A DNA stretch of 64,000 nucleotides from Pomacea canaliculata. Taxonomy: Eukaryota > Mollusca > Gastropoda > Architaenioglossa > Ampullariidae. A program made the translations under genes and the position numbers. The stretch is from positions 17,875,844 through 17,939,843 of the forward strand of contig NC_037592.1 in assembly GCF_003073045.1 (NCBI RefSeq). The letters run 5' to 3'. Below, in pieces: positions 3,052 to 35,629 of this stretch. Every line of letters begins with the position of its first letter. Within the stretch, counting starts at the first letter, position 1. The notes under the pieces were generated by a model, which was given only the letters and a program-made list of their open reading frames with translations, did no database searches and had not been told where the DNA came from.

Positions 3052-3096
3052 ACACATACAAGTGTATACAGCAATTATGCATTCAGAAACAATATT

Positions 3097-3136
3097 AATA
3101 GTCTTACTTCGTATGCAATAGTCTTACTTCGTATGT
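3097..3136. repeat. 20-bp tandem duplication
   Basis: Two adjacent identical copies of AATAGTCTTACTTCGTATGC, between two SINE copies. This looks like a simple replication-slippage duplication. Confidence 0.85.
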
Positions 3137-3239
3137 AGATCAACAACTCCTGTTACAAAAAAAAATTACATACAACCATTATGAAGTTAGCAAGAATTGC
3201 ACGTTTAGTGCTTCTTTGAAGTATTGTACACATTTTACT

Positions 3240-3453
3240 TTAATATTAGAGGCCTCACTTTTCTTAGGACTAGATGTATGTAAGGCCTTTACTTTTTTCT
3301 CTCATTCACTGCTTTCTTTCCCCAAAACCCTCTCTATGGAGTTTGGTACCGATTCCAAACAGCTGGTGTCAACTAGCACAGCACGGACATGGAACCGGCA
3401 CAACCTTCAGTTCAGATGCTAGTGCTCTAACCCTTTGGCTATCTGCTTCTTCA
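3240..3453 (-). repeat. tRNA-derived SINE, diverged copy
   Basis: Second member of the same SINE family, about 190 bp from the first and in the same orientation. It shows the tail-side block CCTCACTTTTCTTAGGAC and a CCCCAAAACCCTCT segment matching CCCCAAACCTCT of the 17722 copy. Further right are a degraded GAACCGGCAC (reversed box B) and CTCTAACCCTTTGGCTATC (reversed box A). The 3' tail looks truncated. Confidence 0.7.
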
Positions 3454-6732: not shown

Positions 6733-8310
6733 TCAAACACAGTCTGGATGGCAGTATAATGGAACTGAACTGATACAAGTATTATCATTTTCTGATACTG
6801 TGCTTGTTGCAGCAACATCTATCCTGTTATCATCTTTATCAAAATATACTGCTTCTTGCTGATGAGAGACCATTGGCTTTTCACCATTCAGATGACTGCT
6901 ATGGTTACCAGACATCACTTGATATTCATTCTGGGCATGCTGCACCTCATTAATGTCACCTTCAAAACCCTGGAAAGATTGCTCCTGCTGCATATTAAGA
7001 ATGGAAGATGGCTCTTCCACGTAGTTTGTCAAAGATTTATGTGCTTGCTGTGTTTCCACTCTGCAAGGGGTCTGAAAGTGGTCAGATTCTTGCACAACAC
7101 TAGATTCCTCACCTACAATAATATCTGTTTGACAAACCGCAGCAGTTCCTACAACATGAAGTGATTCTTCACAGCCAGGTGCTACATAATCTGCTGAGGT
7201 ATGAACTTTGGAAACAATATCATTGTCTGACAAATTATCTGCGTGATGTAAGCTGCCTGTTTGTACAACACTAATTACTTCTGATTCACCTGCACAAATG
7301 ATATAGTTCTGGCCAGCAGGTATTTTACGTTCACTGTTATCTTGCACAACGTTATGGAAAGGTATCTGCTCTACTTTCTGTAGGGAGTACTGATCATCAA
7401 CAGTTTCTATCTTCATCTGTTTGTTAGGTGAGCAGTTTTCATATATCTGAGGTGGTTGGCTAGTACGGAATGCTGATTCAGCAAGTTGAGTAAGAGTGTT
7501 GGCAGCATCAACAGCAGTTGGCTGGCTAAGATCAATTTCATGGATTGAGTCATGAATATTTGTTTCTTCATCAGAACATCTCTGTTCTGCACTGACATGT
7601 GGCCTCTGGTCAAAAACTATCCCCTGCTGAGAAAGTTGGGTGAGAAGGTGGGCAAGTGAGAGTTCTCCACTTTTGGTATTTAGATCCAAGTTCTCAACTT
7701 CAATTACAGTCTCTCCCTTTTCATTGACATATATATTTGTTGGTTTTGCTTCACCATGTGGTTCCCCTTGTTCTACATCATTCAAGAAAACAGTTACTGG
7801 ATGAGGATTTTCAATATCTGTAGGTTCACTCTGAACGGCTTTGAAAGTACTCTGTCTGGAGACAGGACCTTCTGTATAGTGCTGCTGGATACCTGTACCA
7901 AAAGTTGGCTCTTCAATATAAACAGTCACAGATGGGCGCTGAAGAACAGAAGGTCTGTTGCATGGATATTTGACATGCTCTCTCATTTCATCAAGTGACA
8001 AAAATCTCTGGTGACATATAAAACAGCAGAGTTCTTTGCTTGGCCCAGTTCCTGTATCACTTGCAGGCAGTGCTGTATGTGTCATCCCTATTTCAGGGTC
8101 AAGCGTTTCTGCCATTTTTTGAAGAGCTTGTGTCTCAATCTCTCTTCTTCGGATAAAATTGTCAAAACCACCTGATCGGCATGAACGACTATGCCTCCAT
8201 CGTGATATGGCATCTTCAAATACCATCATGCAGTGGCGACACCAGAATCGCTTTGCTGCTGGTACACTCAACCGGTGGCATGGGTGGTTTGAAACCCTGG
8301 CTCGCTGCAT
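6733..8310 (-). CDS. C2HC zinc-finger protein with long acidic tail (525 aa)
   Basis: A single coding exon. I start at the ATG of MQRARVSNHPCHRL because a splice acceptor (TATTTTAG) ends at 8331 and the exon begins at 8330, so the upstream in-frame ATG at 8379 lies in intron. Finger 1, about residues 23-43, reads C-x2-C-x12-H-x3-C (CRHCMMVFEDA...HSRSC). Finger 2, about residues 93-114, reads C-x2-C-x12-H-x4-C (CFICHQRF...HVKYPC). Both end in Cys rather than the second His of a classical C2H2 finger. The remaining roughly 400 residues are rich in acidic residues, Gln, Ser and Thr and look disordered, as in transcriptional regulators. They include a proline-flanked SVTVYIEEPTFGTG segment and several repeated 'VEQ/QSDH' acidic patches. 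I do not recognise an orthologue. DNA binding and nuclear function are inferred from the fingers alone. Confidence 0.8.
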   Translation of the reverse strand: MQRARVSNHPCHRLSVPAAKRFWCRHCMMVFEDAISRWRHSRSCRSGGFDNFIRRREIETQALQKMAETLDPEIGMTHTALPASDTGTGPSKELCCFICHQRFLSLDEMREHVKYPCNRPSVLQRPSVTVYIEEPTFGTGIQQHYTEGPVSRQSTFKAVQSEPTDIENPHPVTVFLNDVEQGEPHGEAKPTNIYVNEKGETVIEVENLDLNTKSGELSLAHLLTQLSQQGIVFDQRPHVSAEQRCSDEETNIHDSIHEIDLSQPTAVDAANTLTQLAESAFRTSQPPQIYENCSPNKQMKIETVDDQYSLQKVEQIPFHNVVQDNSERKIPAGQNYIICAGESEVISVVQTGSLHHADNLSDNDIVSKVHTSADYVAPGCEESLHVVGTAAVCQTDIIVGEESSVVQESDHFQTPCRVETQQAHKSLTNYVEEPSSILNMQQEQSFQGFEGDINEVQHAQNEYQVMSGNHSSHLNGEKPMVSHQQEAVYFDKDDNRIDVAATSTVSENDNTCISSVPLYCHPDCV

Positions 8311-9056
8311 TTTCTCGACCTTCAAGGTCACTAAAATAGCACAGAAAAAGAAATATTCAAACTGGATGACAGAATACAAGACTAAAGAGAATCAAATAAC
8401 CACAACTTTAAACTGAACCAAGGACAAGGTATAAAAGTTGCTTAAGACGTTCGTTCTGAAAAAAGACTATAAATTTAACCTGAAGATTTGCTAAACTGTT
8501 GGGGGGGGGTCATTTTAAGACATTATCCCTTTAAAACATTAAGATGCATTTATGTCTTGATGTCGACGTAAAAAATGGAATTAAATATCAGTCAGAAAAG
8601 CACAAAATTCTTCTTTTCATAGAAACACACCGGGGACAAAATACAATGACCCCCTTCTGCAATTTGTTTCATGCGCGCGTAACATTTTGCCACTTGATTC
8701 CTATGTATCCACTTAAATGTGCTTGTGTCTGACAATAACCAAAATATGTGAAGATCTTATGGATGTTACAAAACATACTTTGTATGCATTCTACAGCATT
8801 TTAAATACGCTAATCTGTGGAGATCAATTGCAGTAATGCGAATCGTTGTTGATCGTACTGCAATGCTGCATTTCTTCTTGTGAGTTACCATCTTGCAGCT
8901 TAGTGTTCCAATTAAACAAACCCAGATAACCCACTTTCTTAAAGCTGTTAAGTTCCCATTCTTTTGAAAAGACCCTATATTTGAGCGAAAGTTCAAAATA
9001 AAATAGTATTTCAACTTATAAATACCTATTCCTTTATCTTCAAAACATTCATTCAC

Positions 9057-14344: not shown

Positions 14345-17342
14345 CTAGTTCGATGTTGCTAACGTCCTCTCCTTCAGCGTAATGGCAAGATCTGCAATAG
14401 TTTTGTTATGTGGCGTCCGCCGCCAGGTTTGCTGACCGATGCACACTCCGGGTCCACGCCACCAGGACTCAACGTCTTCAAACCAAGAAGGTCCACGGTT
14501 GGGAACATCGTTTGCCAAGGCGCACATTCGGCACCAGAAGAACGTGTTGATGATGTCACCAGTTCCCTTCCAGGCAAAATAGCTGTTATAAAGCGTGTCA
14601 TCTTTGTCCAGCTTCAGCAGATACTCTGCTAGCTCCTTGGGCGATTCGAAATCGTCAACGTGGATGAACGAATGTGGCGGCGCTGCTCTCTGGTAGTCCT
14701 CGGGGGCCGCGCCCATCACAATTGGAATCACGTCATGCCTGCCAGAATGATGTGAAAGAAGGTTAGTTGTTGTGGTTTGAAAAAAAAAAAAAAATCTAGA
14801 AATCGACAAATCCAAAGTCCTCTTACCACGGACCGTACATGTAAATCCTTGCTCCTCTGCAACTCCTGTACGCATGATCACACACAAGCGATTACCTGTG
14901 TACCTCTACCCAATCAAACAGCATATCAAACTTCAGTGCACAGTCATTCAGTGTTTTACCATCGCGTAGAATTTGAAAAAAGCCATTAACACAAGATTCT
15001 TCTTAACCAAATAAATCAGCACGAAATTTGACCAAGTCTGGGAAACTATTTTTTAAAATAACCTTCTTGTTAAAAACTTTGTCAAACTTCGTCCAAATTT
15101 GTCCCGTTAAAAAGAACTTTTAATAGCATTTTCCAACGGAGTCTGAAAACGTAAGAGAGTTGTGAATACCATAAATTTCGGATTATTAAGCACACCTGTA
15201 TATAAGACGGACCCACTAAATTAAAAAAAAAATGTGTCCACAAATAAGCCGCACTGGTTTATAGAGTCTCATCGTACACACATTTTATAATAAACAAGAT
15301 ACACGAAAGTTGATATTTCGACACTACCTGTTATCAAATATTTTTGACGCAGTATTACATGACAAAGAAAATACACTAATAATCAAAGTAGTGTCTGAAC
15401 ATAAGAACCCGATCAAAATATTAACATATGTACACTGATTTTAACCTTAGATCAGAAAACACGGTAAAAGTTAAACTCGGAGTTTGAATCTCTTTTAATT
15501 TTAGGGATGGGGTACACTACAGTGATGATATGTAAGTGCCTTATAAAAAGTTATTGGACCAAATGATTCATCTTGTAATTTAAAAAAAATCTGATGAGCT
15601 ACAGTTTAGTGCTAGGCTTTATTGCCGCTCTACGAATTTATCTTAAAACATTACTTGAGAAATTTGTAGGTTTCGCAGCTCTGTGGAAGTGCAACACTAC
15701 ATTAATTAAAATGCGTGAATTCAGTATATATATATATTAAAAAAAAAAGAAAATAGAAATAATTGTAAACAAAATTTTACACAGTTTAGTTCGAAAATAG
15801 AACAGAAGTGTGAACCAAATGGCGCGTGTGTAAGGCATATGGAAGTATTTATTTTTAATTTTTATCTCGCAGTCTTTGATCTAAGTCAGAAAAACACATA
15901 CACACGCGCGAGAGAGGGAGGAGAGAGAAAGAGCCAGAAAGTCAGGCGACATTGACTATATTCTGTTAGATGTAGCACGATAATAAATGCTATGACGCAC
16001 TGCAGTAAACTGGAAAACTAACTTGCATAAAAATAAGGCAGACAGCTGCTGGTAAGGAACCAAAAAATGTAAACAATCGCCGGGGAAAGAGAGAGGCTAA
16101 CATTTTCTTAACCAAGACATCAGTGCAGGCGAAACTGTAACCCGTCACTGTGAATGAAGGCAAGTGACAATGTCATTTAACTGTTATCGTTCTGTTACTC
16201 CATTATATCTATCTAGTCGCCGATGGTAAACTCACTCGACAGAGCTGATATTGTCGAGAGCAATGTGCGATACTCAAGGGGAGGAAAGATATTTTAAAGT
16301 TGGTCTATTCTATAGCTAAGAACAAGTGTTTCATTTTATGGTTTCGCATGTGAAATAAAAACATCCAGACTTACTTGAGTCCATTGATGAAAAATTTTTC
16401 TGTGATGTAGTCCCTGCAATTCGAGTTCTCGAAGGCCAGGTAAAACTTGTAGTCTTTGTTCAGCATCTCAAAGCATTTATTGTTCTGGAATCGAGGACAC
16501 TTAAGCGTCCCGCACGCACCATAAATGTCAACTTGGATATATTGAGATAGTTCATTGGCATATTGCCGTCGGCCATTCCTTGCTCCACAGTTGGAGACAA
16601 ACCAGGCAACCTTCTTCGTCTTGCCTTCTGCATAGTTCTTGGGCCGGGGCGGCTGCACAGACGAATTAAAAGGCACGAACTTTTCGTAAGGAGCAACAAT
16701 GGTGGAGTCGTGACGATATGTAGCCGTCCAGTTGAAAAAAGAACGGCTCGAAGAAAATGTCATGGTATGGTATGGCGACTCCAGCATAAACAATGCCCAA
16801 ATCTGATTCATGGACTTCTTAGGGTCTCTTTGACTTACCGAATGCTGAAAAAGGACAACATCTGCTTCATCGAGCTTTGAGTGTTCGTCAAGTAGAGTAC
16901 AGCTACTCACAGCGCACTTTTGCTCTTTAAATAAGGTTTGCCCACGAGGAATGCTCCAGCTTGACAAGCCACTATATACGAGAATCTTCTTTAGAGGAAC
17001 TTCTTTTTGGTCTTGTAGGGATTGAGGAATGAATTGAAGCTGGCTAACGATTCTGTCGTCCGAATATTGATCAAGACTTGGATAAATGGAAGGTCTCTTT
17101 AAAACGAAAGGTCTCGATGAGTTCTGCATCAGTCGGTTATGTAAAACGTAATCGTGGATGCCCTTACCGAAGAAAGTCGGCAGATGCCGAGGAGCATGCC
17201 GGAAGTTGCCTCCCCATGGAAGGGCACCATTGCGATGTTGAGCGTCGAATCCCATGTCCATAACGTTTAAGTTGAGATAAATGACAACGAGCAAGAATCC
17301 TGCCAGAAGAATCTGTAGAAGCTTTTTCACGTACAGACGCAT
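14345..17342 (-). CDS. Alpha-1,3-fucosyltransferase, GT10 family (453 aa)
   Basis: Golgi type II membrane enzyme that transfers fucose from GDP-fucose to N-acetylglucosamine-containing glycans. Two coding exons, 17342-16375 and 14738-14345, join in phase across a GT-AG intron (donor AA/GTAAGTC, acceptor CTGGCAG/GC). The N-terminus has a short cytoplasmic MRLYVKK and one membrane segment (about residues 8-28), then a stem and the catalytic domain. The GT10 signature is clear: VAWFVSNCGARNGRRQYA, VDIYGACGTLKCPR and YKFYLAFENSNCRDYITEKF, followed after the splice by IPIVMGA and SYFAWKG. The length is normal for the family. Acceptor specificity within GT10 cannot be read from sequence. The intron carries a MITE fragment and AT-rich simple repeats. 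Confidence 0.92.
15168..15285. mobile_element. DNA-transposon-like repeat fragment in the fucosyltransferase intron
   Basis: ACCATAAATTTCGGATTATT is followed by three diverged copies of a TATAAG-CCGCAC-like motif (AAGCACACCTGTATATAAG, AATAAGCCGCACTGG, GGTTTATAGAGT). This organisation recalls a widespread terminal repeat of non-autonomous DNA transposons. I could not find an opposite end. Confidence 0.35.
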
Positions 17343-17477
17343 GCTTTCCTATCGACACCAATATAACGTGCAGCGCGACCGAATTCCTTTGTGGGACTGC
17401 ACCATATGGACACTCAACAGCTCTCTCCTCACTTCACTTCTGATGACAGATGGTTGTTTACGATTATAGTGGAGACT
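17343..17477 (-). other. 5' untranslated exon segment of the fucosyltransferase
   Basis: Upstream of the ATG on the minus strand a pyrimidine-rich tract ends in TTTTCAG near 17478. This suggests that the coding exon begins there with about 135 bp of 5' UTR and that a further noncoding exon lies upstream. The ATG context is AAAGCATGC. Confidence 0.45.
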
Positions 17478-28046: not shown

Positions 28047-28299
28047 TTAACATCGAATATGCACCAAAATTGAATAGTTTCAATAACTTTCTGTTACATT
28101 CCGAAATTTATAGATCTGTTTTACAGTTTTAGCGGTTAATAAAATGTAATGTGAAACAGACACAATTTTATTAACTCTATAGGCGGTGGTGGGGCCGGGT
28201 GCGATCGAGGCCTATATTCGCCTTTTCGTAATGAGGTGCGCGGAAAGAGATGCGCAGAAACGGGAAACCATTGCTACTTCCTGTTTACATTTCGCGAAC

Positions 28300-31200
28300 A
28301 TGGCTGAAACATCTACTCCATCTGTGTTCTCGCGAAATCTGCAATGCGTACCAGATATTTCTTTCAAAGAAATTGAATTATTTAGTTCCAGAAGCTCGGC
28401 AAAACGCAATCACGAGCGTGGATACAATTATTTCGCCGAGAAATATATATTCGACGTTCGGGGTAAGCAGACACTTGGCAGAGTGAATGTGGAATTGTGA
28501 TTCCAGCTTTTTGTCTGAATGTGCCATTGACTGTCAGTCTCATAAATAAAATTGCAAAAAATTAAATATATTCTTACATCAGAAATATATTACAACATAT
28601 ACTGAGGTAGATTTTGGTGAGATAAAATTAATTTTAAGCAGTGAAAGGTAAAACGTGCATTGTTTTTTACATTTGCGGTAAACTGGCGTCTATCCAGGCT
28701 TTTTTTTTTACTTGTTTGCTGTTGTTTTATTTAAGGTATTTTATCATTTGTGTCTGGTCCTGTGATGCTTTTTCTGCACATGGATGTATTATTATTATTA
28801 TTATTTTTTTTTTAAATACAGTTGCACCGAATCCCAACAACGATGGGTGTCGAGCAACATCTCGATGCTACAGGTCATACACGAAAAGTGGAATTCCCCA
28901 CACACTTGAAGTTAGTGATGGTGAAAAATTTCTTCTCGCTGAAATAATTGTTTAAAAGGCATAGTGAAACACAATTTCACAGAGGACAGATAGTATAATA
29001 AACTTTCTTTTCCTAATGCATTTTCTGAAAATTCTATGATAATGTTTTCATCAAAGTAAACACTGTTAAATTGAAATTGTTTTATTGTGGTTACCAGGTC
29101 TCAATAAGTGCCACAAAAGCAATCTCTAATGGATGCTGCACGTGTGCTAATGGGCAAAGTGGGCACTGTGGACACATTGTGGGCTTGCTCTTCTTGCTCA
29201 CTTTAAGATAACAGGAGCAAACTACATTCCTGAGGTAATCTTGATAATGAAGAGGGATGGTCTGAGACTATTTCTAGGTGAAATATTTTTTATCAAGTGT
29301 TTCTTATGTTCAAAATGATAGAAAATTAAGAAAAAAATTTGCAAGCAGGTATTACTTCTTTGCTATGTAATATTCCATCATCTACATCAGTTTCTCATTT
29401 GCAGGATGCTGCAAAAACATCACTGCCCAGACATGGCACATCCCCAGAGGAGAAAAGATAAGAGGGAGGCAGTGGATGAAATCAAATCCACAGTTTTAAG
29501 TCTGACAAGAAGTCAGACCGTAGTATTTGTAGTACATACAGGTACAATCCATTGTCTTCAGAGTTTCCATCTGCCCTTCACCTTGTTGAGAGTTTAAAAG
29601 CTGCCACAGCTAGTAAGTTCCTGTTGTTTTATTAAGAATTTTATTTGTTGTGTTGTACAAGATCTGCATAACGAGAACTTTATGCTTTAACAAAAGAGAC
29701 ATTTATACTTGACAAGACCATACAAAAGATAAATTTCATTATTTGTTTATTCTGTAAGAAATGATTCCAGAACAATTTTTTCCATTCAGAGTAGAATAAG
29801 CAGTAATTTAGCATGCATTATATTTATACACACACATCTATGTTGTCATACATGATAAATTACTCTTGCTCATCATATAATAATTAATAGCCTCTTAAGA
29901 CCATACAAAAGATAAATTTCATTATTTGTTTATTCTGTAAGAAATGATTCCAGAACATTTTTTTCCATTCGGAGTAGAATTTAATTGCATGCATTATATA
30001 TATATATACACACACATCTATGTTGTCATACATGATAAATTACTCTTGCTCATCATATAATAATTAATAGCCTCTTAAAATTTTATTTTAGTTTTATGAG
30101 TACAGAATTACAACATTTCATTCCACAGCAATGATGCCATTCTCTATAAGTAAGAAGCAGACTCCAATGGTTGATACCAAATATGGTAAATATCCGAGGG
30201 GCAGTACACTGGCACATCAGCAAAAACTTCATGACAGCTTCATCATGAACTTCACTGAACTAGCCACATTTCCTGATCTTCCCCTAAGGAATGTGATGTC
30301 AGGAGATATTCCTGATTTATCAGAAGAAAAGAAGTACCTTTTAACCTCACTCAAAGTTTGTTTTCCCCATTGTCATTTATCATTTATTAGATACATTAAA
30401 ATTTTATAAGTGGAAAGTGAAATTAGCTGTCCTGTCCAAGTCATCTTTATTCCTCACCTCTTCTTTCATACAAATGGGTACAGTTTATGATTTAAAAAGT
30501 TAAGCTTTGATATTAAACATTGTCTTTTGAAGGATTCTCATTGGCACTTACATGGATAAAGAGAGTGGTATCTAGGACAATGGAGAATGTTTGCCTGCAT
30601 TAAAGAATCATTTTCATCTTTTTTTATTGCTATTGCATATTCTCTTCCAAAGTGCTTGGTATAGCCCAAAGTTCATGTGTTTATGTGCATTTATTCTTTA
30701 TGGATTTCAAATTATTTTTGCAGGTCACTCAGCAAGAATCTGTTGTAATAGAAAGGGATACACGACTACAGTCGAATTGTCCCTTGTGGCACAAGCTGCG
30801 ACAACACCGCATCACTGCTTCTGTTGTAGCAGATGTCGCAAAAAGGAAGAAAGGTTAGGTTTTTGTTCCAGTTGTTGTAGTAAGTGCAGCTATATGAAAT
30901 AATAGTGAAAGATGGCACTCTTCGGTAGCTGGCACAGTGTATTGTTTATAATGTTAATGAGGAAATGTAATGATGAGGCAACACACAAGAAAGCAGCATA
31001 ATTTACTGTCTCTTCCGAATCAAGATTAGTTTCTTAGACTTCATTTATACTGTCAGGACATTAATGCACATAATGTATGTTATAAGTAACTAATTGTTGA
31101 ATAGCTTACATCATTATTAATGTCACCTAAAGATAAATCAGTGTGATTTATACCATATACAGAGACTAGTACATCTTTCTAACATTTACTGCCAATGCAG

Positions 31201-32090
31201 AGAGAATGCCCTTTTCATTTTAAAAGTAAGTTGTCTTAAGTAGACAATTGCAATGTTTAACTCAAATAATTAATTATGATTCTTCAGATTTCCAAGCCTT
31301 GTCTAAAAGACTTAAATCTTCAAAGACAAAAATGACACAGGCCATGAAAGATGGCATTAAAAATGAGCCTCTGGCAGCTGAGGCATACAGTAATGTGAGT
31401 ACACAGAAACAGCTACAGGACTAAATTATTTTGTAAAAGCACATATGCAGATCTGATTATTTATTTTAACAGTTACAAGAGAAAAATATTTAACAAGTAT
31501 ATTTAAATAAACTGGATCTAAAGCACACCAATCTCTTAATATAGTGATCTTGGTGTGATTTGGAGCTCTATTAATGTACACATGCAATTTAATGTACATG
31601 ATGGGAAGCCCTAAAATTTTAATTATACTCCACTATATGTACATATTCTATTGTTCTGGTCACAAGTAACTTAACTATTTTCATTATCTGTCTAGATGAA
31701 GGGAATACTGTCAACCTGTATCCAGCAGGAATTATCATACACCCAGATGCATTCTGGTTGGCAGCAAGTCCAGATAGAAAAGTGTATGACCAGTCCAGAA
31801 CACAAGATCCCTTTGGACTGTTAGAAATAAAGTGTCCAAGCATGTCCACAAGAAGATCACTTGAGGAACTACCCTATTTGGAAGAAGTCAATGGAAAGCT
31901 TCAGCTTAAAAGAAGTGACCGTTACTATTATCAGATACAAATGCAGCTGGCTGTAACAGGTCTAGAATGGTGTGACTTTTTTGTGTGGTCCGTAGATGCT
32001 TGCCACCTGGAGACAATAAACTTTGATCAAAATTTCTGGAATGGGGTAAAAAATGCAGTTGATACATTCTTTTTTACCTATCACCTATAA
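28300..32090 (+). CDS. SWIM zinc-finger / YqaJ-type nuclease protein of the ISL2EU element (apparently disrupted)
   Basis: Predicted exons: 28300-28462, 28822-28949, 29098-29234, 29405-29612, 30129-30355, 30724-30853, 31288-31389 and 31696-32090. Exon 1 starts at GCGAACATGGCT. Exon 3 encodes a SWIM zinc finger, CTCANGQSGHCGH (C-x-C-xn-C-x-H). The last exon carries the YqaJ/lambda-exonuclease-like core: WLAASPD (metal-binding Asp), LLEIKCP (E-x-K) and YYYQIQMQLAVTG. The family is a PD-(D/E)xK nuclease first known from phage recombination modules. In the element it probably processes DNA ends during transposition (inference). Frame continuity fails once at the end of the SWIM exon (the HFKITGANYIPE stretch reads in another frame) and twice in exon 4, where KDKREAVDEIK is out of frame with its flanks. 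Donors at 28949 and 30355 are weak. It is therefore either a decaying gene or contains sequence errors. Confidence 0.75.
29714..30079. repeat. 183-bp tandem duplication in a nuclease-gene intron
   Basis: Two adjacent units (29714-29896 and 29897-30079) both begin AAGACCATACAAAAGATAAA and end TAATTAATAGCCTCTTAA. They differ at only a handful of positions plus a short indel in the centre, so the duplication is recent. It lies wholly in the intron between nuclease exons 4 and 5. Confidence 0.92.
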
Positions 32091-32151
32091 GAAAACAGCT
32101 GGTTTCCGTGTTGATCTTTCTCGATATCATCCACTGGTAGTATACCATAGC

Positions 32152-35100
32152 CTACATTTCTTGATCAGGATCATCTGAGGCATTGGGTGCATATTTGGTG
32201 ACAAGAGGAGGGTTAAAGTTTGTAAGGAGAACAGCTACAGTCCATAACTGATTCAAGCTACCACATAAGGTCAAAGGAATCTTTCCGTGAAAAAGCCTAT
32301 ACTCTTTGACTCTGCGGATTGCTCGCTCCACATGTACTCGTAGTGAACTGATACTTTGGTTGGCTGTGACTTCACTTTCAGAAAACTGACCCTTTCCTGA
32401 TAAAAAAGCAGGCATGTTTAATGAAATATTTTTCTTTGCCAGGATATTTTGTATGTTGAAACCTTTGTCGCTCATTACAGAATCTCCAGGTTCCAGCAAG
32501 TCAATTAGGCCAGAAAGCTGCGTTATTTCAGAGTCAGACATGCTGCCTGAATAAAGTTTGGATACAAAGGTCACTGACCCATGTGGTGATATACCTATCA
32601 AAGACTTGAGTGTTGCCTGACCTTTGTAGTTGGAGTAGAACTGACTGCTTCTCACTAATGAAGAAGGGTTCTGCATAAACAACTCAGTGCAGTCTACAAT
32701 TATTCTTGTTTTTGGAAAAGTAGCTTTGAAGTCATCTGGCATATACTCGTCTATTTCTTCCCTAGATAGCCAGATATTCATGCTGCCAAGAATGGTATAC
32801 AAAAAATTTGCCCACGCATTGATTTTAGTGCTCACAGAGGATGCGCTAATTGCAAAGCGATCTGAGAGATCTGTTATTAATAGACCCAGTCTCAGCCGCA
32901 CAAGAAACATAAACAGTTCATCAATAAGCTGCATATTTCCATTTGGACGTCTCATGCAAAGTTTTTCGCCTGATTTGCCATATGCCTGGTACATTCCTTT
33001 TGCATGTGGCTCAAGAAACATATAAAATATTTTTAATACTTTGTAACTGGGAAATCCAGTGTAAAACTGTATTTTAGCATCATCATGTGCATACCGTTCT
33101 AATCCAAATTTTTCAATTTTGCTACTGCTCTCCAAAGTTTGTACATGTTGTTCTAACTGTCGTATCCTCTCTTCAAGAGCTTTATTTTTTTCTTTTTCTT
33201 TGGAGAGCTGCTCTTCAATAGAGGGGATGCTTACTGCTGCAGGCTCTTCATCTGCTGTTGCAGGCTCTGTGTCTGCTGTTGTAGGCTCTGCGTCTGCTGT
33301 TGCAGGCTCTGAGTCTGCTGTTGCAGGCTCTGCGTCCACGTTTTCACTGATAAAAAGGAAAATCATTTTACTACATGAAATGACTGATTTTGCACAATTC
33401 ACTTAGCAATATTTGACAGGGGTTAACCTGCAGTAATTTCTGCAATCAGATGAGCAGAAGTGAACCTACTTAATTCAGTAAATGACAGATCACTTGCAAG
33501 ATATTTTGATATACAGATCTTTTTTGTTCATCTCATGAATACACTAGGAATGTGAGTGTTTTGTGTTTTTTTGTGATTTGAGTTGTGAGTTGTAAACTGA
33601 AAATATGTTTTGAGACTTGTTAATAGTCAAAGTATCTGAATAATGATTACACAATTTCTATTGTTATAATGCAGTGGTTCTCAAAGTTTTTCAGACCGCG
33701 GACCACTTTACTTCAGTAAAAACTATGGCGGACCACCAAGGCCTAAGTAAAAAATATGGCGGACCACCAAGGCCTAAAAATCAGTCTGTACTATGTATTT
33801 CAAATTTAAATTGCCGCATTTGTCTCATTACAATTCAAAACTAAATGTACTTTTGTAAAAGTAGTATAGTAATAAGATAACATAAAACTGCGTACCTCGT
33901 TCTTTGTAATTAAAATGTTAATTAAAGGAATGCATCACTTTAAACATCACTTTGCTGACATATGACGACTGTCAGCCGGGGACCACCTGACTTATGCCTG
34001 CGGACCACTAGTGGTCCACGGACCACACTTTGAGAACCACTGTTATAATGTGTTAATATTATTACATATTTTTTAACAGTGATGATATTAAATTTGATTT
34101 GTAAAAATCACTTTGCATTTACCTTTTATTTCTATGTAAGATTTGGACAGCGATTTCCATGCACTACACATCTGAACTGATCAATACTTTTTTCTTTAAA
34201 ATACGCATTCTCATCTTGTGTAAAGCAAACAGGTAGTTCACAATAAATGGGATTGAAAGACAAAACAATTCAGACAGTTGTAGCACAGTTGCATACCAAT
34301 AAAAAAAAAACAAACCACAGAATGCAATATCCTTATAAAGAAAAATGATTAATTAATCACACTCTCTGTTTTCATTACAAGATCATTCATTAATACAATG
34401 CAAAAAAAGTTTACCTCTGATTTGTGTTGGTATTTGCTTGTGAAATGGGATGACGAACTGCAGGCTGCTTTCTCTCTTTTCCACGTTGAAAGTTGTTCCA
34501 TGTAAACAAACTTGGTACAGCATCTGATTTTAGTCTCCTTTGTTTTCCTTTTAAGGTCAAAGGGCGAAAATCTTCTGGCACAAAGTGCCTGCTACAAACC
34601 CTTGTCCAATTTCTGACCTGAGAAAAAAACGTAGTCATGTGTTGTTAACATAAACATTTACCAAAAAACATGTAAGATTTTATGCTTATGATTTTGTCTT
34701 TAAGCCGTTTTTAAAATGATATTCACGACATTACTTTTAATCACTGTTGACTATGTTGTGAAACTAATAATCCTTATGTTTAAATTAGTTTATGTATGAT
34801 AGAGTGTAAATGAATGGCGACTGATTCACAATTAATTAGTCATGCAGCAGCAGCAAAGATATATAGGTTTAACTACAAAATAAGTTGTAATACTTGTAAT
34901 ATATGTCCACCTTTTTGAACATTTCTGGTGCATTTTAATATAATAACACTTAATAATACAATGTAATGCGTTTTCGGTAATACGAAATGGCTATGCCCAC
35001 ATGCTGTAAGTTTAAACTACGAACACAATAAGTATTCTGAAATCAGAATTTTAAATCAATTAGAAAGATTAACGATGATTCAGATAGCATGGAAAAAAGT

Positions 35101-35333
35101 GATGTTGCGAAAGAAGAAAATGACTAATAGTGATAGGGAATTTGAAACCTCGATCATGCTTACCCGAAAGAGTGGTCCTGATCGTCTCTCCGAATTCTTA
35201 CAAGCCAAAGCTTCTTCATTTGTTCATCCTTCGGAAATATATGAAAGGATAATGCTGGGCATTTGTAGGCTTTAACTGTACACTGAGGTACACAGCAAAA
35301 TCGACTATCATTGTTAATTTTAAGAGCCGGCAT
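32152..35333 (-). CDS. THAP-domain DDE transposase of the ISL2EU element (520 aa, open frame)
   Basis: Three exons join in frame: 35333-35164, 34612-34415 and 33346-32152. The start ATG opens MPALKINNDSRF. Residues about 13-75 form a THAP zinc finger of C2CH type: CCVPQC, then FHIFPKDEQMKKLWL, then after the first splice NWTRVCSRHF. Next come a basic stretch, an acidic 7-residue tandem repeat (EPATAD units) and a coiled coil (KEKEKNKALEERIRQLEQHV). The DDE_Tnp_4-like catalytic domain then shows the triad in RIIVDCTELF (D), SVMSDKGFNIQ (D) and HVERAIRRVKEYRLF (E). DNA cleavage and joining at the element ends is its expected role, with THAP binding the terminal repeats. I use an acceptor 5 bp downstream of the first AG because only that keeps phase and gives a normal THAP sequence. 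No stop or frameshift was seen. Confidence 0.88.
33243..33339 (-). repeat. 21-bp minisatellite inside the transposase exon
   Basis: About 4.6 units of a 21-bp repeat (GCTCTGCGTCTGCTGTTGCAG type on the plus strand) encode the 7-residue EPATAD-x repeats between the THAP and coiled-coil parts. The unit length keeps the reading frame, so copy number could vary without breaking the protein. Confidence 0.9.
33672..34042. mobile_element. hAT MITE nested in the transposase intron
   Basis: A 371-bp element with perfect 16-bp inverted ends CAGTGGTTCTCAAAGT / ACTTTGAGAACCACTG. It is flanked by identical 8-mers TTATAATG (33664-33671 and 34043-34050). Inside the left half ATGGCGGACCACCAAGGCC is tandemly repeated. 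The ends and 8-bp duplication identify a non-autonomous hAT element. The perfect target duplication implies a fairly recent insertion, later than the ISL2EU copy it interrupts. Confidence 0.95.
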
Positions 35334-35629
35334 GGTCGAAGAACGCTACGTGCATCAACAGTAAACATCAAAACCGGAAGTGGTCTAGATTTTTTGTGGG
35401 GTGAAGGTCATCTGCATGCATAATTTTCCGAAATCATAGTATAAGTTCGTGGCCAGTCTTTACTGTTATTCTTATTTGTGGGAACCTTCGGTCATAGACA
35501 CTTATAAAGAATGTTTTTGAAGTCGATACAGAGCTGACTGATACCGAAATTGTACCCCAGGTTGATTATTGTATTAGTATTATAAATTTATTTTCCTTTT
35601 ATGACACTCCGTCTGAGAGCATACTATTT

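Follow-up and report, generated by a model that had tools for sequence, protein, structure and literature searches.

A probably disabled copy of a young ISL2EU-type transposon in Pomacea canaliculata, and related copies that lack the nuclease gene

Results

Structure of the two-gene element

A 64,000-nucleotide stretch of the genome of the snail Pomacea canaliculata (NC_037592.1, positions 17,875,844 to 17,939,843; the window) contains a two-gene transposable element of 7,218 bp (~7.2 kb), termed here a copy of family A. Its extent, window positions 28218–35435, was set by the breakpoints of homology that it shares with other copies. Domain E-values, copy number and shared termini establish that the element is real and beyond chance. 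The explanation that we hold with high confidence is that it is a recent copy, disabled as assembled, of a young ISL2EU-type transposon that inserts into TATA, and that the nuclease encoded by its second gene is not needed in cis and would act as an accessory in trans. The transposase gene on the minus strand and the YqaJ nuclease gene on the plus strand lie tail to tail, with stop codons at 32152–32154 and 32088–32090, respectively, and 61 bp between them. A preliminary description of this DNA had placed the element at 28300–35333, which lies within it but short of its true ends. The exon boundaries of both genes are predictions from splice-site letters and the reading frames of the copies, not from transcripts.

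Exon 1 of the transposase gene (35164–35333, minus strand) encodes the first half of a THAP domain, as located by Pfam and copy alignment. Exon 2 (34415–34617, minus strand) encodes the second half, its start being the acceptor that fits the other copies. Exon 3 (32152–33346, minus strand) is open and in frame and encodes acidic 7-residue repeats, a coiled coil, the helix-turn-helix (HTH) domain HTH_Tnp_4, the catalytic domain DDE_Tnp_4 and the stop codon. Pfam matched DDE_Tnp_4 at E 5e-42 and HTH_Tnp_4 at E 3e-10, and the THAP domain, divided between two exons, at E 2e-7 and 1e-6. The acidic residues D, D and E (in VDCTE, SDKGF and HVERAI) and the C2CH ligands of the THAP domain were seen by eye, which bears out the earlier statement that the catalytic residues and zinc ligands are retained. 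No transposase match was found when exon 3 was compared with solved structures. The acidic repeat is encoded by 21-bp tandem units at 33234–33338, a region in which copy C7_24.55 carries an extra 63 bp.

The nuclease gene reads on the plus strand. Exon Y1 (28300–28462) holds the predicted start codon, and the following exon begins at about 28824 with an uncertain 3' end. Exon Y3 (29099–29234) carries a SWIM-like CxC...CxH motif and is followed by Y4 (29404–29611) and the open exon Y5 (30128–30355). The domain-search match to YqaJ / viral alkaline exonuclease begins in Y6 (30725–30854); Y7 (31290–31395) contains the first acidic nuclease motif, GIKNEPLA, and Y8 (31697–32090) contains the SPD...EIKC active-site motif. 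The YqaJ domain was matched at E 6.5e-10 by the last exon alone and at E 6e-21 over model positions 2–149 of 150 when the last three exons were joined. Compared with solved structures, the same three joined exons matched exonuclease 3syy at E 5e-9, in an alignment that includes the SPD and EIKC motifs. As far as its sequence tells, the YqaJ protein is a lambda-exonuclease-type nuclease whose active-site motif is kept in family A. The SWIM finger of the window nuclease is indicated by its CxC...CxH motif (CTCANGQSGHCGH). With a threshold of E 10, Pfam matched no SWIM domain in the window frame 29029–29211 or in exons Y3–Y4 of copy C14_17.26, and the protein of a second family described below (family B) matched at only E 0.1, below the Pfam cut-off. 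The tail-to-tail layout of the preliminary description and its 61-bp spacing are therefore confirmed by the domain matches and stop positions, and its SWIM finger stands as a motif.

Long family A copies are near-identical and dispersed

The 440-Mb, 24-contig assembly was searched with family A DNA, which gave at least 83 matches; the best 40 of 1,394 candidates were scored. At least seven long copies, the window copy included, are 98.7–99.8% identical in pairwise comparisons with gaps ignored, and private substitutions among the seven amount to 0.21–0.85%. These copies have common ends and different flanks. Near-identical copies with shared ends, which the preliminary description took as the mark of recent mobility, are thus present, and they define the termini. 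Together with an AT duplication shown by an empty site (below), the near-identical copies in different flanks support the view that family A is young and has recently been mobile. In none of the seven long copies, as assembled, do the three transposase exons all follow the family frame.

The copies also differ internally. A tandem duplication with a unit of ~183 bp (29714–30078) lies in a nuclease intron in some family A copies only. Transposase intron 2 contains a 371-bp miniature inverted-repeat transposable element (MITE; 33672–34042) with 16-bp perfect terminal inverted repeats (TIRs) and an 8-bp duplication, TTATAATG, at 33664–33671 and 34043–34050. It is presumably hAT-like, judging from its TIR and the length of its duplication. 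Several family A copies at other sites carry this MITE; it is absent from copy C11_0.957 and from 9 of 9 old deletion derivatives. A recent hAT-Charlie burst in the P. canaliculata genome is described in the available part of the genome paper (PMC6129957).

The old derivatives are at least nine older copies, ~84–94% identical in their main segments, that share an internal deletion. In all nine its left breakpoint is window position 29895, or the matching point in the second of the two units duplicated in the intron. On the right, the deletion ends at 33297 in six copies and about one 21-bp unit beyond in the other three. These copies retain the transposase gene's 5' portion and might be imagined to encode THAP-only repressors comparable to the KP protein, a repressor of the P element. 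In all eight derivatives that were aligned in exon 2, the histidine among the THAP zinc ligands is altered (to Leu in both that can be translated), the start codon is lost in three of seven aligned at exon 1, and we rejected this idea as very improbable.

A more distant old copy, O_C14_0.89 (C14, 0.89 Mb), has a nearly open exon 3 with a single stop in the coiled coil. Compared with the window over 351 codons, its exon 3 has 85.5% amino acid identity, synonymous divergence (dS) of 0.43 and nonsynonymous divergence (dN) of 0.069. The dN/dS ratio of 0.16 indicates that the transposase has been under purifying selection between family A branches. Such selection between distant copies, and the unique flanks of the window locus, would also be displayed by a transposase-nuclease gene pair that the host had domesticated at a conserved locus. 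The at least seven dispersed, near-identical long copies, the deletion derivatives, the target duplications, an empty site and the frameshifts in both genes of the window copy make domestication scarcely credible. The host gene contemplated in the preliminary description thus finds no support for family A, which is multicopy and dispersed.

Family A inserts into TATA

The flanks of family A ends read TAT at 9 of 10 in-register left ends and ATA after 12 of 14 right ends; one further (eleventh) left end, out of register, is omitted from this count. At the window copy, the left AT lies at 28216–28217, preceded by T at 28215, and the right AT lies at 35436–35437, followed by A at 35438. Six joined flank pairs, from families A and B together, were used to search for empty sites. 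Three genomic sites are identical over 183 bp to the joined flanks of copy C14_17.26. The site is ...GAGCTGTATAGGCC... when empty and ...CTGTAT[element]ATAGG... when filled. These data fit a 2-bp AT duplication within TATA (T|AT|A) rather than a TA duplication; on sequence alone, an AT carried by the element would look the same as a duplicated AT. No empty site was found for the window copy, whose flanks are unique in the genome. The joined flanks of family A copy C5_0.12 and family B copy L056 gave only diverged spanning matches (70–82% over the two), whose junctions were not inspected. As a separate observation, the insertion target of copy D_C8_0.69 (L028, L035) reads as a palindrome, GAGGTAT/ATACCTC.

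The left end of the window element is TCGCCTTTTCG and its right end is ...CCGAAATC, compared to ...CCGAAATCGTCA in other young family A copies; the right terminus of the window copy thus lacks the final 4 bp. In the older copies, GG starts 7 of the 7 right ends and 3 of the 5 left ends that are in register. The window and young copies do not, and have TCGCC at the left and GTCA at the right.

The window copy is probably disabled

Exon 1 of the window transposase carries a 2-bp insertion that is absent from 15 of 15 other copies aligned at that spot. If splicing uses the acceptor suited to the other copies, the frame shifts and meets a stop early in exon 2. The nuclease gene contains five frameshifting indels in three exons: a 4-bp deletion in Y3 relative to five other aligned copies, three 1-bp deletions in Y4 relative to most of six other copies (one of the three also occurs in two of these six), and a 1-bp deletion near the start of Y8 relative to most other copies. 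Because the transposase is frameshifted at the family splice sites, the nuclease is broken in three exons and the right terminus is 4 bp short, the window copy is probably a young relic, disabled as assembled, rather than a mobile element. The earlier proposal that the element could still be, or recently have been, mobile holds at the level of the family as to recent mobility; this copy is damaged as assembled.

A stop-free transposase of 520 residues in three exons had also been reported. It can be read if exon 2 is entered at 34612, which lies 5 nt downstream of the acceptor to which the other copies conform, and it is lost with that family acceptor. If the downstream acceptor were used, the window copy would still encode a working transposase. 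The join gives a THAP score of 66.0 bits, no worse than that of copy C14_17.26 (64.3 bits), and the entire reading is free of stops. It nonetheless calls for a splice-site switch that exactly compensates the window's own insertion, the upstream acceptor fits wherever both exons are readable, the 15 other aligned copies lack the insertion, and the right terminus is damaged as well. We consider this route to a working transposase quite improbable.

The frameshifts and the missing terminal bases might instead be assembly errors in an intact, possibly active copy. For the assembly (440 Mb, 14 chromosomes), PacBio reads were joined by smartdenovo and the result was corrected by Pilon, according to the available part of its description (PMC6129957). 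The indel to substitution ratios of the seven long copies range from 0.33 to 2.18; the ratio for the window is 0.81, from 16 private substitutions and 13 private indel events. Several indels of the window copy are losses of 1 bp in homopolymer runs, and transposase exon 3 is fully open. Homopolymer slippage does not account for the 2 bp inserted in exon 1 or for the losses of 4 bp each in the SWIM exon and at the terminus, and an intact copy requires that six coding indels and the terminal loss all be errors. An intact window copy is therefore unlikely, and we retain the reading of a disabled young relic. Copies C2_24.41 and C5_0.12 (L012, L018, L014, L017) have 81 and 37 private indel events compared to 60 and 19 private substitutions, an excess that likely reflects misassembly of near-identical repeats.

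Copies without an intact nuclease gene have spread in two families

Family A copies C14_17.26 and C5_0.12 have the same deletion (window 30083–31276, which removes nuclease exons Y5–Y6), are 99.8% identical and lie at unrelated sites. A search of the genome for YqaJ gave 17 matches and led also to family B (L001, L003, L005), a second ISL2EU family in the same genome. Its SWIM/YqaJ open frames have 586–619 codons and, where the retrieved stretch includes both genes, face a DDE transposase tail to tail; each gene is one single open frame in copies where it is intact. The family B transposase is 34% identical in amino acids to that of the window over 221 aligned positions. DDE_Tnp_4 and HTH_Tnp_4 were matched above the cut-off and THAP below it (E 0.0011; 20.2 compared to 23.9 bits). 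The YqaJ search also returned a further type, L002 and L004, with open frames of 231 and 235 codons in two near-identical copies on C10 and C6.

A DNA search with family B copy L003 gave at least 75 matches; the best 40 of 479 candidates were scored. Nearly the whole nuclease half (L003 1480 to ~3340, 97–100%) occurs at at least five places, and parts of it occur at others. At least seven places lack the nuclease body and have the transposase half followed directly by the far end (L003 1–1326 plus 3078–3338), and a shorter version of near 90% identity is found at about 20 more places among the matches listed. The seven nuclease-free copies retrieved (L052, L054, L055 and L056–L059) are ~2.5 kb each (L059 is 2.8 kb) and have the same ends as the two-gene copy on C10 (B_C10). 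Three of the seven hold an open transposase frame of 531 amino acids and four are interrupted. The empty site of B_C10 is AATT (A|AT|T), from spanning matches of 91% and 89% that are identical at the junction. None was found for L052. The shared deletion at unrelated sites in family A and the amplified nuclease-free copies of family B indicate that spread in either family does not depend on an intact nuclease in cis.

Other features of the window

A host-like fucosyltransferase is represented on the minus strand by two exons, 14345–14905 and 16371–17348, which match Glyco_transf_10 at E 2e-24 and 3e-30. A 552-codon open frame with cysteine/histidine pairs at 6733–8391, also on the minus strand, had no Pfam match up to E 0.01. 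A tRNA scan of the window found none.

Discussion

A course of events for family A can be proposed. The THAP-HTH-DDE transposase would act on the short imperfect terminal repeats, the end binding by THAP and HTH being assumed from the ISL2EU family. It inserts the element into TATA and duplicates the central AT, as the copies, their flanks and the empty site show for the family. The YqaJ nuclease would most likely serve as an accessory in trans and resect the breaks at the donor site, after which repair would restore or copy the element. A lambda-exonuclease-type enzyme would suit this task.

More broadly, two ISL2EU families in one snail genome may have lost or crippled the nuclease and yet spread, one in a compact single-gene form of 2.5 kb whose transposase frame is complete. 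YqaJ would then be a dispensable accessory in trans, and the ISL2EU target would have shifted from AATT to TATA with the AT duplication kept. We offer this tentatively, as a generalization that falls a little short of an even chance. Several points weigh against the readings given here. Dispensability of the nuclease does not follow from the nuclease-free copies, because coexisting two-gene copies may move them in trans. The three open family B frames have a pooled ratio of nonsynonymous to synonymous polymorphism (pN/pS) of 1.22, on few differences, with no sign of selection since insertion. The family A target is T|AT|A rather than the A|AT|T published for ISL2EU in the available text of PMC4482050. 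Lastly, the indel ratios are high for ordinary decay; given this excess and a PacBio assembly polished with Illumina reads, part of the frameshifts may stem from the assembly, and damage to the window copy may be overstated.

The window copy itself would be an ordinary young relic. The wider interest lies in copies that spread after loss of the nuclease gene, which bear on the purpose of the second gene. In the sections available of Han et al. (PMC4482050), the function of the extra open reading frames (ORFs) in the PHIS superfamily and any link to transposition are stated as unclear, and the available part of a 2022 fish paper (PMC9179366) says that its authors knew of no proof of ISL2EU activity. 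The near-identical two-gene, nuclease-deleted and nuclease-free copies, with defined termini and empty sites, make the extra-ORF question directly testable. In the ISL2EU literature, as partly covered here, no title among the matches listed concerned Pomacea, and no description of nuclease-free ISL2EU derivatives was found, with no search aimed at that point by itself.

Among known systems, the phage exonuclease 3syy, which we take to be LHK-Exo (the structure record says only Exonuclease), matches the YqaJ part in an alignment that covers the active-site motif. Lambda exonuclease 1avq was matched weakly (E 1.3), by the family B protein only. To our knowledge, neither phage enzyme has a transposase partner or a SWIM-like finger. 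P elements and host THAP genes combine THAP with a P-type transposase and have no YqaJ partner; the DDE_Tnp_4 catalytic domain and YqaJ partner of family A rule out this identity. PIF/Harbinger elements have a 3-bp TWA duplication and a Myb/SANT partner in the available text of PMC4482050, and are ruled out by the 2-bp duplication and the YqaJ partner. A Harbinger or P assignment lacking YqaJ, the alternative named in the preliminary description, is thus not what the 2-bp duplication, DDE_Tnp_4 and YqaJ point to. Spy elements have a related DDE transposase and usually one gene, and differ in having no duplication, an AAATTT target and no YqaJ partner, according to partial texts (PMC4482050, PMC9179366, PMC12730594, PMC11304231). 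Movement without YqaJ is therefore possible in the clade.

Family B resembles family A in its THAP-HTH-DDE transposase tail to tail with SWIM/YqaJ and in its AT duplication. It differs in having the published A|AT|T target, single-frame genes and an amplified nuclease-free 2.5-kb form. ISL2EU itself is described in the available portions of Han et al. 2015 (PMC4482050) as having a transposase with DDE, HTH and THAP, a second ORF with YqaJ and a 2-bp AT duplication. There the composition of the duplication is a group-defining criterion, the conserved A and T beside it are a shared ISL2EU characteristic, the TIR usually begins with GG and the average length is ~4.8 kb. Family A shares the three transposase domains, the YqaJ ORF, the AT duplication and an animal host; a GG start occurs at the right ends and some left ends of its older copies. 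Family A differs in the TCGCC start of its young copies, the window included, in its length of 7.2 kb, in the predicted introns of both genes and in its target. Because the DDE/HTH/THAP transposase, the YqaJ partner and the AT duplication seen at the empty site agree, the ISL2EU class given in the preliminary description is upheld. The evidence supports family A as a candidate ISL2EU member of the PHIS superfamily, filed with a shifted target since its TATA flanks and the TIR start of its young copies depart from the published description.

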